From an uncultured Synechococcaceae cyanobacterium (GTDB taxonomy: Bacteria; Cyanobacteriota; Cyanobacteriia; PCC-6307; Cyanobiaceae): a stretch of 64,000 nt of DNA. The stretch covers positions 62,001 through 126,000 of the forward strand of contig CACPJY010000001.1 of NCBI GenBank assembly GCA_902634405.1, in the 5' to 3' direction. The first letter of the stretch is position 1. The number at the start of each line of letters is the position of its first letter. The notes under the pieces were generated by a model. That model did no database searches. It was not told the DNA's origin and saw only the letters and a list, made by a program, of their open reading frames with translations. Below, one piece after another: positions 48,165-55,628 of this stretch. The translations under genes were made by a program, and so were the position numbers.

Positions 48165-49715
48165 AGCTTTTCTCTTCTCCATACCCAATCCGAACTCAAA
48201 GAATGGCTGCAATTCCACCAGGACAAAGAAATCACCTTTGTGCCAACCATGGGGGCTCTACACCGTGGCCATGAAGCACTCATCAAAAAAGCAAGTGAAT
48301 ATCAATCAGCTATAAAGTCAAACCTTACATTAGTCAGTATTTTTGTAAACCCTCTTCAATTTGGACCTAATGAAGATTTTAATAATTACCCACGAGATAT
48401 AAAGCAAGACACACTTATAGCTAAAAGATGCGGCGCAAAAGCCTTATGGGCCCCATCATTGGAAGAAATTTTTCCAGGAGGGCCTCACTCAAATTTTACA
48501 ATTAAAGCTCCAGATTTTCTTCAAACACACCTTTGTGGAGCTAGCAGACCAGGTCACTTTGATGGAGTGGCAACAGTAATTCTTCGTCTGTTAAATATTG
48601 TTCGCCCTGAAATACTTATATTAGGAGAAAAAGATTGGCAGCAATTTGTAATTATAAGAAAGCTCTTGAAAGATCTAAATATGCCTATAAAACTTATTGG
48701 AGTACCTACCATACGTGATCAAGATGGTCTGGCATATAGTTCACGCAATCTAAAATTAAATCTTGAAGAAAGAAAAAAAGCAATCCATCTCCCGAAATTC
48801 CTCAGTCAATCAGTTGAAGAATATCTCAAGTTTGGGGAATTAGATATTGAAAATCTCTATTTGAATCTCAAACAAAAAGGGTTAGAGATTGAATATTTAG
48901 AGCAAGTAGACCCATTTCTTCTGAAACCAGTCAAAACATATAAAAATATATCATTAGTTGCCGCATCTGTAAGATTTGGTTCAACCAGACTCATAGACCA
49001 CAAGTTCCTAATGAAACGCAAACCAATTGTCGCGATAGACGGGCCTGCAGGCGCAGGCAAAAGTACTGTAACCAAAGAACTAGCTAAAAAGCTAAATCTC
49101 ATTTATCTCGATACAGGAGCCATGTATCGAGCAGTAACTTGGCTGATAAAAGAAATGAATGTCGATATCAAGAATGAAGACGAAGTGAAAAATTCACTTG
49201 CAAATCTAAAGATTGAATTCAGTTCAAATCAGTTAGAAGTGCAACAAGTGCATATCAATAGTAAGGATGTAACTGAAGAAATTCGTTCTCCGAATATCAC
49301 TGCTTTAGTTTCTGAAATTGCTGCCCATCCATCCGTACGAGAAATCCTAACAAAGCAACAAAAGGAAATGGGTGATCAAGGTGGTTTAGTAGCAGAAGGA
49401 AGAGATATAGGCACTACAGTTTTTCCAGGGGCTGAATTAAAAGTATTTCTGACTGCCACCGCAAGCGAGCGTGCCAGAAGAAGAGCTTTAGATATGAAAC
49501 GAAGAGGCTTTTCAATAACTAGTTTATCTGACTTAGAAAATGAAATAATTAAGAGAGATGAATTAGATTCATCCAGAGATATATCTCCATTAATCAAGGC
49601 CGACGATGCAATAGAGGTGATTACAGATGGGATGGAGATTGACCAAGTTGTAGAAAAACTAATTGACCTATTCCGACGCAAGGTACCCTATGAGGCTTGG
49701 CCTAACCCGAATTAG
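48162..49715 (+). CDS. panC/cmk: Bifunctional pantothenate synthetase/cytidylate kinase
   Basis: A fused protein of 517 aa, as known in cyanobacteria. Residues 1 to about 284 are pantothenate synthetase (ATP-dependent joining of pantoate and beta-alanine), with VPTMGALHRGHEALI, VSIFVNPLQFGPNEDF, CGASRPGHFDGVATVI and LGEKDWQQF. From MKRKPIVAIDGPAGAGKSTVTK onward it is CMP/dCMP kinase, with YLDTGAMYRAVTW and VAEGRDIGTTVFPGA. The track start (GTG 48240) removes the first strand. Reading back to the CTG at 48162 adds 26 residues (LSFSLLHTQSELKEW), the normal panC N-terminal length. It overlaps the phosphatase gene by 14 nt, tail to tail. Confidence 0.92.
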   Translation: MSFSLLHTQSELKEWLQFHQDKEITFVPTMGALHRGHEALIKKASEYQSAIKSNLTLVSIFVNPLQFGPNEDFNNYPRDIKQDTLIAKRCGAKALWAPSLEEIFPGGPHSNFTIKAPDFLQTHLCGASRPGHFDGVATVILRLLNIVRPEILILGEKDWQQFVIIRKLLKDLNMPIKLIGVPTIRDQDGLAYSSRNLKLNLEERKKAIHLPKFLSQSVEEYLKFGELDIENLYLNLKQKGLEIEYLEQVDPFLLKPVKTYKNISLVAASVRFGSTRLIDHKFLMKRKPIVAIDGPAGAGKSTVTKELAKKLNLIYLDTGAMYRAVTWLIKEMNVDIKNEDEVKNSLANLKIEFSSNQLEVQQVHINSKDVTEEIRSPNITALVSEIAAHPSVREILTKQQKEMGDQGGLVAEGRDIGTTVFPGAELKVFLTATASERARRRALDMKRRGFSITSLSDLENEIIKRDELDSSRDISPLIKADDAIEVITDGMEIDQVVEKLIDLFRRKVPYEAWPNPN

Positions 49716-53370: not shown

Positions 53371-54657
53371 ATGAAAAAATCCAAAAAAACAACACGAGTA
53401 GGCTTTTATTTTGTAGTAGGTATTACTGCTGCTGCAACACATTCTGTAGTTTTGATAGTGCTAAATGTTTTTCTTTCTCTCTGGATAAGCAATCTATTAG
53501 GATTTTTGTCAGCCTCATTAGTGAGTTATATTGGTCATTCTAAATACACCTTCAACCCTGAAACAAAGGGTAATAACTTTGCACGTAGATGGTTAATTTA
53601 TCAATTTACAATAAACCTATGCCTAAGCATCTTATTGCCTTTAGTATTAATTACATGGGGTAATTGGATTATAACTAAAATCCTTTTAATACTTTCACCA
53701 ACAATTATGAATGCGCTTATTTGGTCTCAGGCAGCAAAGTTTAGTGCTCGTCGACACCAAAAAAGTTTAACAAAACCTATTCTACATGCTGACGACCTGG
53801 GCCTAACATCACAGACCAACATTGCGATACTAGATCTAGTAAAAAATGGAAATCTTGATAGTGCAAGCTTGCTTATCAATGGTAACGCTGTTGAGTCAGC
53901 AATAAAGGATTGGAAGAAAGAGAAAAGAGTTTCTTTATATCTACATTTCTGTCTTACAGAAGGTCCAGCATTATCACAAAATAATACTCTAGAACATATT
54001 GTTAATAAGAAAGGGGTTCTTCATTATTCTTTTGCTAGATTAGTCTTAGTTTCGTTAATCCCAAGATTATTTGAATATCGGAGAATAATAGAGCATGAAA
54101 TTCAAACTGAATTAATAGCTCAAATCAAACATTATAAATTACTAACTGGAGAAAACAGAATTGCCTTAGATGGACATCAGCATGTTCATCTAATTCCAAT
54201 AGTCCTGTCTAGCATACTTAAAGTTGCAAAAGAAGAAAATATTAATTGGATTCGTACAGCATCAGAACCCTTGCTAGCAAATCTTCCTATGAAATCTTGG
54301 GTAAGATCTTTCTCAAAAGGTGGCTTGTTAAAATGGTTGGTTCTTCTAGCTTTAAGTTTCATCGGAAAACAAGAGATTTTAAAAGAAGGTATACAAACCA
54401 ATTCAGCATTTGCAGGGGTCCTATTCACTGGGCAAATGGATAGAAAAGTAATTTCCTCTGCATGGAAGGAGCTCAGTCTGCTAAAACCTGGCCTAGGAGA
54501 GACAGATCCAATGATTCTATGCCACCCAGCCTCTTGTCCAACATTGGAAACACAAAAAGAGCTAATTAATTTTCCATTATCTAGAAAATTTCTTTACTCT
54601 AATTGGAGAGAAAAGGAATGGATTGTTCTCAAAACTATTATACTTAATATGAATTAA
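53371..54657 (+). CDS. GtrA membrane domain fused to YdjC/ChbG deacetylase
   Basis: A 428-aa two-domain protein. Residues 1 to about 130 are a GtrA-like domain: four helices with the signature SYIGHSKYTF, a family thought to flip bactoprenol-linked sugars. Residues about 135-428 are a YdjC/ChbG-type carbohydrate deacetylase, with ILHADDLGLT (metal Asp), LYLHFCLTEG, and LDGHQHVHLIP (metal His), so the metal site looks intact. A YdjC-family relative, NaxD of Francisella, deacetylates undecaprenyl-phosphate-GalNAc. The neighbour is a GtrB-like glycosyltransferase, convergent with a 4-nt overlap. Role in a lipid-linked sugar modification is inferred. Confidence 0.85.
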   Translation: MKKSKKTTRVGFYFVVGITAAATHSVVLIVLNVFLSLWISNLLGFLSASLVSYIGHSKYTFNPETKGNNFARRWLIYQFTINLCLSILLPLVLITWGNWIITKILLILSPTIMNALIWSQAAKFSARRHQKSLTKPILHADDLGLTSQTNIAILDLVKNGNLDSASLLINGNAVESAIKDWKKEKRVSLYLHFCLTEGPALSQNNTLEHIVNKKGVLHYSFARLVLVSLIPRLFEYRRIIEHEIQTELIAQIKHYKLLTGENRIALDGHQHVHLIPIVLSSILKVAKEENINWIRTASEPLLANLPMKSWVRSFSKGGLLKWLVLLALSFIGKQEILKEGIQTNSAFAGVLFTGQMDRKVISSAWKELSLLKPGLGETDPMILCHPASCPTLETQKELINFPLSRKFLYSNWREKEWIVLKTIILNMN

Positions 54658-55628
54658 TCAAGCTTATGAATTGCCCTGATGAAGTAATGAGGCCTAGCTT
54701 TTGCATCAACATAGATTCTACCTATATAATCCCCCAATACTCCAATTCCAATAAGCTGTATTCCTCCTAAAAACAATACAGCGACAATTAAAGAAGCATA
54801 TCCAGCAACATCAATCCCAATAAAAACTGTCCTTAATATAATCCAAAAAGCATAAATCAAACTCAGAGTGGATACTGAAATACCTAAAAAAGTCCAAACC
54901 TTTAATGGTAAAACAGAGAATGAGAATATACCGTCTAACGCATAATTGCACAATTTCCAAGGGCTCCATGAAGTCTTACCTCCTGAACGAATAAAACGTC
55001 TATAACTCAATTCAACACTTCGATATCCCGTCCAAGGAAGTAACCCTTTAGAAAAGCGACTAAATTCACGCATTTTTGTCAACGCATCTACAACCGGTGC
55101 ACTCAAAAGGCGGTAATCTCCTGCCCCTTCTTTCAACTGAATGGAGTCAACTAATCTATTAAATACTTTATAAAACCAAGTTGCACTTGCAACTTTAAAA
55201 AGTGATTCCTGATCACGGTCATCTCGAACAGCTGTAACAACTTCTGCACCGTTGACCCAAGCCTTAACCATAGACGGAATCAACTCTGGAGGGTGTTGCA
55301 AATCTGAGTCAATTAAAACCACAGCATCACATCTACCAGAAACATGGTCTAACCCAGCCAACATGGCTGCTTCCTTACCAAAATTCCTAGTTAATTCAAT
55401 GAGGGTAACTTTATTAGCTATGTCTTTGGTCACTACTGAATTCTGCCAATCGCAAACTTGATCAACTGTCTTGTCATTAGACCCATCATCCACTAAAACC
55501 AGCATGCTCACCTCATCCAAAGCCAGCACTCTTTCAATAAATTGAGTAATAACTGCCTCCTCATTGAAACAAGCTGCTACTACCCACACTTTTGAGTTCA
55601 CTGGATCTGGGACAACTAAAGAACTCAT
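54654..55628 (-). CDS. GtrB-like polyprenyl-phosphate glycosyltransferase
   Basis: A 324-aa family 2 glycosyltransferase of the GtrB/DPM1 type. The catalytic domain has VVAACFNEEAVI, LVLVDDGSNDKT, ELTRNFGKEAAMLAGLDH and the DxD-type VLIDSDLQHPPELI. The C-terminal third has two membrane helices (about 230-255 and 267-290). Such enzymes load a sugar onto undecaprenyl phosphate on the cytoplasmic face. With the facing GtrA-YdjC fusion it forms a plausible transfer-deacetylate-flip set. The donor sugar is unknown. Confidence 0.88.
   Translation of the reverse strand: MSSLVVPDPVNSKVWVVAACFNEEAVITQFIERVLALDEVSMLVLVDDGSNDKTVDQVCDWQNSVVTKDIANKVTLIELTRNFGKEAAMLAGLDHVSGRCDAVVLIDSDLQHPPELIPSMVKAWVNGAEVVTAVRDDRDQESLFKVASATWFYKVFNRLVDSIQLKEGAGDYRLLSAPVVDALTKMREFSRFSKGLLPWTGYRSVELSYRRFIRSGGKTSWSPWKLCNYALDGIFSFSVLPLKVWTFLGISVSTLSLIYAFWIILRTVFIGIDVAGYASLIVAVLFLGGIQLIGIGVLGDYIGRIYVDAKARPHYFIRAIHKLD

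Follow-up and report, generated by a model that had tools for sequence, protein, structure and literature searches.

The described systems closest to the locus reported here are the NaxD pathway of Francisella and Acinetobacter, the lgm cluster of Bordetella, a Brucella gene cluster, the Arn pathway and the three-component Gtr systems of phages. Bordetella lgmABCD comprises genes for a glycosyltransferase, a GT-C and a YdjC-like protein together with a fourth gene; in the Arn pathway ArnD is a deformylase of the NodB type (CE4) and not a YdjC protein, and ArnEF is an SMR flippase. NaxD deacetylates GalNAc on undecaprenyl phosphate (PMC10927774), genetic work has shown that lgmABCD attaches GlcN to the phosphates of lipid A (PMC11895810), and the Brucella genes gtrA-wcaA-chbG-arnT form one cluster, BAB2_0132-0135 (PMC10746212). 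A flippase role for GtrA has the standing of a proposal in the literature (PMC11127046). We describe here a picocyanobacterial locus in which GtrA and YdjC form a single protein; no description of such a fusion was found in the literature searched, outside which lie most subscription journals.

Organization of the locus

The window is a stretch of 64,000 nucleotides from an uncultured Synechococcaceae cyanobacterium, whose 1.56-Mb assembly is 78% complete and contains one YdjC gene. This gene is an open reading frame of 428 codons without internal stops (53371-54657, plus strand), and the preliminary description was right to see in it one polypeptide joining GtrA to YdjC. Both Pfam domains score above their cut-offs: GtrA_DPMS_TM (PF04138) at residues 13-114 (53407-53712, plus strand) with 35.7 bits against 26.1 (E=1e-8), and YdjC (PF04794) at residues 137-420 (53779-54630, plus strand) with 134.7 bits against 29.7 (E=7e-39). 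Reading the codons from the fourth transmembrane helix (TM4) to the YdjC domain reveals no in-frame ATG, GTG or TTG, so a separate deacetylase product is probably absent.

The fusion gene converges, as first described, on the gene for a 324-residue GtrB-type GT2 polyprenyl-phosphate glycosyltransferase (54654-55628, minus strand), such that the two stop codons overlap and the pair occupies exactly 53371-55628. The transferase has a GT2 domain (PF00535) with a DxD motif, and its closest characterised relative is the Synechocystis GtrB sll0501 (PDB 5ekp/9nyc; E=3e-83), to which it is similar over its full length including the C-terminal membrane part. Elsewhere in the window, a single open reading frame at 48240-49715 contains, judged by eye, both pantothenate synthetase-like and cytidylate kinase-like sequence.

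An AlphaFold2 model of the fusion, built from the window protein and 43 relatives (pLDDT 91.8, pTM 0.85), shows four long helices followed by the alpha/beta fold of YdjC. The four-helix GtrA domain of the preliminary description thus reappears in the model, with predicted transmembrane helices at residues 2-31, 37-65, 72-92 and 100-128 that are consistent with the hydropathy profile and the Pfam match. Positively charged loops lie at the N-terminus (KKSKK), between TM2 and TM3 (ETKGNNFARR) and in the linker after TM4 (SARRHQK), which by the positive-inside pattern suggests an N-in/C-in topology that would place the deacetylase in the cytoplasm.

The deacetylase domain

The YdjC domain contains the motifs HADDLG and DGHQHVH, and its active site maps readily onto that of ChbG. 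Residues D141, D142, H192, H269 and H385 align with D10, D11, H61, H125 and H206 of kpChbG, in which D10 is the base, D11, H61 and H125 bind the metal, and H206 is the acid (PMC9402603). All five are invariant in the 52 fusions aligned, so that loss of metal ligands, which in most members would have told against the preliminary interpretation, was seen in none of them. Since these proteins are only 33-48% identical to the window protein, divergence has been long without loss of catalytic residues, and this argues for a working enzyme. A helix at residues 318-338 (54322-54384, plus strand), identified from the model and alignment, contains an invariant K321 and a near-invariant W322; it is hydrophobic in the window protein, variable across members, and possibly lies at the membrane surface.

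A Foldseek search with the model finds ChbG (7vi8) as the nearest PDB fold (E=2.6e-10, TM to target 0.70), and chitin disaccharide deacetylase ChbG (NF002559) is the second NCBIfam match, so the domain might act on a soluble sugar, as ChbG does in chitooligosaccharide use. However, the NCBIfam score (80.5 bits) is below the cut-off of 227, the domain shares one chain with a membrane domain, and its association with a polyprenyl-phosphate GT2 extends to 83 genomes and has parallels in other phyla; we consider a soluble substrate very improbable. The best NCBIfam match is HpnK (TIGR03473), as would suit a part in the synthesis of amino-sugar hopanoids, but at 102.4 bits this match is far short of its cut-off of 232.6, and we give that role next to no chance. 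Squalene-hopene cyclase was found in none of 41 fusion-bearing genomes, with a cyclase model whose sensitivity is uncertain, as it matched the control genomes only weakly.

Distribution and linkage of the fusion and its partner

Among 400 sampled genomes of the same family as the window genome, 86 contain the fusion. The carriers fall in 22 counted genera, including Prochlorococcus, Synechococcus, Cyanobium and Vulcanococcus, and named examples are Prochlorococcus MIT 0701, Synechococcus WH7803, RCC307, Vulcanococcus and MAGs labelled Cyanobium. Such recurrence shows that the fusion is not a chance event, and related genomes with the two domains as unlinked genes were not seen. Beyond picocyanobacteria, the best 80 genome loci contain no GtrA-YdjC fusion, and in other phyla the two are separate genes.

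The preliminary description asked whether the architecture always co-occurs with this GT2, and took occurrence of the GT2 without the fusion in most strains as telling against its reading; the two are found side by side with few exceptions. Members of the partner GT2 clade, which score at least 370 bits and are cleanly separated from the next-best paralogues at no more than 291 bits, occur in 84 of the 400 genomes; both proteins are present in 83, the fusion only in three and the GT2 only in one, and where both occur they are nearly always adjacent and convergent. Of the fusion-only cases, one lies at the end of its contig (G286) and another has a broken GT2 remnant (G336/L154). Where the YdjC part has been lost (G130, L068) the GtrA part and GT2 remain side by side, and a few fusion copies are themselves broken, for instance by stop codons (G119) or by splitting (G302). 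In G051 a different GT2, 31% identical, adjoins the fusion. Extra genes, one of them methyltransferase-like by eye, are inserted between fusion and GT2 in two genomes (L069, L070).

In most carriers the pair is located between the genes for heme oxygenase and isocitrate dehydrogenase. In four genera (g10, g25, g45 and g52) it lies at other sites and is still convergent, which indicates that the linkage is more than shared position.

Unfused counterparts in other bacteria

Thirty non-cyanobacterial loci were chosen by likeness to the YdjC domain of the fusion; in 24 of them a co-directional gene for a GtrB-type GT2 lies immediately upstream, and a divergent GtrA adjoins that GT2 in 18 of these 24, fractions that reflect this choice and are no census. 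In Comamonas the order is GT2-GtrA-deacetylase, and the GtrA and YdjC genes overlap by 4 nt in the same order as in the fusion. The Acinetobacter baumannii locus has the order deacetylase-GT2-GtrA-GT39, and by gene content we read it as the naxD operon; near-matches to a PmrA box lie about 86-113 nt upstream of its deacetylase gene, at a pattern count not above chance. More generally, the unfused proteobacterial GT2-YdjC clusters often include GtrA or an ArnT-like GT-C. With the Brucella cluster, these loci show that the full pathway exists in unfused and partly characterised form, and such clusters, including a NaxD-type operon and associated GT39 or ArnT genes, lend support to the earlier suggestion that the picocyanobacterial set would load a sugar on a lipid, deacetylate it and flip it. 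In Azospirillum ramasamyi (L292) the YdjC gene shares an overlap with the gene for a DMT-family transporter, with no GT2 within the 4-kb flanks, and this may be another transporter-deacetylase pairing.

These arrangements bear on what the GtrA domain does. It could serve as an anchor in the membrane, or as a partner subunit, and so keep the deacetylase by the GT2 while another protein flips the lipid, given that flipping by GtrA is a proposal in the literature (PMC11127046) and that in Azospirillum the overlapping partner is not GtrA. Against this, the Comamonas and Acinetobacter clusters and classical gtrBA pairs encode GtrA on its own, where it anchors nothing, and where YdjC has been lost the GtrA part persists beside the GT2. 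We therefore regard a purely anchoring role as unlikely, while allowing it appreciable weight, and favour GtrA as the candidate flippase.

A residue proposed to determine the donor sugar

The residue following the DxDLQ metal motif in the GT2, position 112 (codon at 55293-55295, minus strand), is a proposed donor-sugar determinant from sequence comparison. It is His in all 18 fusion-linked GT2s and all 12 GT2s of YdjC operons compared, as well as in the replacement partner in G051, and Asp in sll0501 and in 15 GtrB-type GT2s without YdjC. Across 147 distinct GT2s, those with YdjC have His in 106 cases, and those without it have Asp (26), Asn (10) or His (3), the three with His being a case of insertion, the GT2 of G130, which has lost its YdjC, and a protein of DPMS-like type. 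His is also found in the YdjC-linked GT2s of Acinetobacter (NaxD-type), Comamonas, Variovorax and Methylobacterium, and Asp in the glucose-type P22 GtrB; when the rule was challenged with 48 further loci across the phylum, Asp was the residue in 46 unlinked GT2s. The exceptions are YdjC-linked GT2s of Gastranaerophilales-like genomes (a tentative group name) with Gln (three) or Asp (one), so the rule is strong and not universal. That distant family of the phylum has GT2-YdjC pairs at L283, L284, L287 and L288, one with an ArnT-like gene.

A phylogenetic tree unites the fusion-linked GT2s in a single clade (100/100), which nests within the cyanobacterial GtrB group bearing Asp, where sll0501 also falls, and stands apart from the alphaproteobacterial YdjC-linked clade; because of this placement, the pairing of His with YdjC probably arose more than once. 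The presence of His in YdjC-linked enzymes and Asp in glucose-type GtrB points to an N-acetylhexosamine donor for the window GT2. As sll0501 is its closest characterised relative, the enzyme could instead use UDP-glucose, like sll0501 and P22 GtrB, with the deacetylase acting on an unrelated lipid and the pairing reflecting linkage only. The Asp-to-His change that parallels YdjC linkage, and the fact that this linkage has outlasted moves to new places in the chromosome and, in G051, an exchange of the partner, make a glucose donor improbable, and we prefer N-acetylhexosamine. This single position may serve as a marker by which polyprenyl-phosphate synthases for N-acetylhexosamine can be told from those for glucose.

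Candidates for the final transferase and the acceptor

There is no GT-C gene at the window locus. In g10, g25 and g52 a DUF2079 membrane protein (PF09852) is encoded beside or near the pair, and in RCC307-like genomes (L176) the end of its gene and the start of the GT2 gene have 4 nt in common. Of the 86 carriers 79 have DUF2079, as do 91 of the 314 other genomes, raw counts that ignore kinship; the seven carriers lacking it comprise four genomes of g45 and three assemblies that are incomplete. DUF2079 also adjoins GtrB-type GT2s without YdjC. Its AlphaFold2 model is poor (pLDDT 51.5), and it has no PDB relative and no profile match to an ArnT-like set, for which reasons we leave its role as a GT-C as an association only; no paper on it was found in the literature searched. 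The family is widespread, and we put it forward as a candidate glycosyltransferase.

Two further arrangements involve this family. At five loci (L227, L228, L230, L234 and L236) a GtrB-type GT2 adjoins DUF2079, often with a convergent GtrA and in each case without a deacetylase; these are probably three-component glycosylation systems of cyanobacteria in which DUF2079 is the third component. The window genome (L235, G000 C4:118000-131121; L001:1489-2649) contains three tandem DUF2079 genes, and close to them a GT2-GtrA (DPMS-like) protein encoded as a single chain.

The neighbour of the fusion in g45 is not DUF2079 but an ArnT homologue (5ezm, E=1.5e-47). LpxK is absent from 40 of 41 carriers in one survey and from all non-g45 carriers in another, and was not found in the 78% complete window genome; it is present in three of the four fusion-bearing g45 genomes, nearly genus-wide in g45, and in one g31 genome. 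LpxC is present in 41 of 41 carriers. With LpxK missing from most carriers, lipid A phosphate, the NaxD and Lgm acceptor, is probably absent from them. Phosphate is lacking from the published lipid A of two marine Synechococcus strains (PMC4515613), so that by default there is no NaxD acceptor at hand. ArnT-type transfer to lipid A phosphate fits g45 only, and as the LpxK/ArnT correspondence is confined to one genus it represents a single evolutionary event and no independent support. Two g6 genomes encode an ArnT-like protein without LpxK.

A proposed pathway

From the domains, catalytic residues, pairing and conservation described above we infer a chemistry, a sugar, a flipping step and an acceptor. 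At the cytoplasmic face the GT2 would load undecaprenyl phosphate with an N-acetylhexosamine, either GlcNAc or GalNAc, taken from the UDP-sugar, and the YdjC domain, cytoplasmic after TM4, would take off the acetyl group in a Zn-dependent, NaxD-like reaction. The attached four-helix GtrA domain would then carry undecaprenyl-phosphate-hexosamine across the membrane, and a GT-C encoded elsewhere, for most carriers a DUF2079 protein and for one genus an ArnT homologue, would attach the free amino sugar to a glycan or lipid of the envelope. We assign a probability of about 0.77 to the reading of this locus as a module of two proteins and three activities in a lipid-linked amino-sugar pathway, and of the readings considered the preliminary interpretation remains the best.

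A more ambitious proposal is that the fusion is a coupled deacetylase-flippase exporting only the free amino sugar, and that DUF2079 is a new GT-C family completing this and other cyanobacterial three-component systems, with a cationic sugar placed on a phosphate-free outer membrane; we offer this combination tentatively, and would sooner bet against it than for it. The natural fusion provides a system for testing whether GtrA handles the deacetylase product directly. The module predicts an amino-sugar modification of the envelope in marine picocyanobacteria, which are abundant and in whose LPS, as published, there is no lipid A phosphate, heptose or KDO, and we speculate that the change in envelope charge could bear on interactions with phages, grazers and ions.

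Comparison with known systems

The P22 and Shigella phage systems (GtrA/GtrB/Gtr*) have GtrA and a GtrB-type GT2 in common with the window locus, and P22 GtrB shares about 43% identity with the latter, but these systems use a glucose donor, have Asp at the motif and lack a deacetylase. ArnC/ArnD/ArnEF/ArnT follows the same logic of a lipid-linked sugar, cytoplasmic deacylation, flipping and GT-C transfer, with Asn at the donor motif of ArnC in contrast to His in the window GT2. Bordetella lgmABCD, likened here by gene roles and not by sequence, differs in having lipid A phosphate as its acceptor, and the Brucella cluster contains all four functions in one place, but unfused.

The NaxD pathway has the same set of a GtrB-type GT2, a YdjC deacetylase and GtrA. 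Its GT2 shares 39% identity with that of the window over 309 aa and has His after DxD(L/F)Q, whereas the YdjC proteins are only 25% identical. The NaxD pathway acts on undecaprenyl-phosphate-GalNAc and feeds lipid A galactosamine, with an acceptor, lipid A phosphate, that is probably missing in most picocyanobacterial carriers. In Acinetobacter the genes are four, separate and co-directional, with the GT39 adjacent, whereas in picocyanobacteria GtrA and YdjC are fused, the GT2 is convergent and the GT-C is usually unlinked. To judge from its sequence, the locus has the NaxD/Lgm-type set of GT2, YdjC and candidate flippase, and the fusion is predicted to be a widely conserved fused variant of the NaxD-type amino-sugar lipid pathway.
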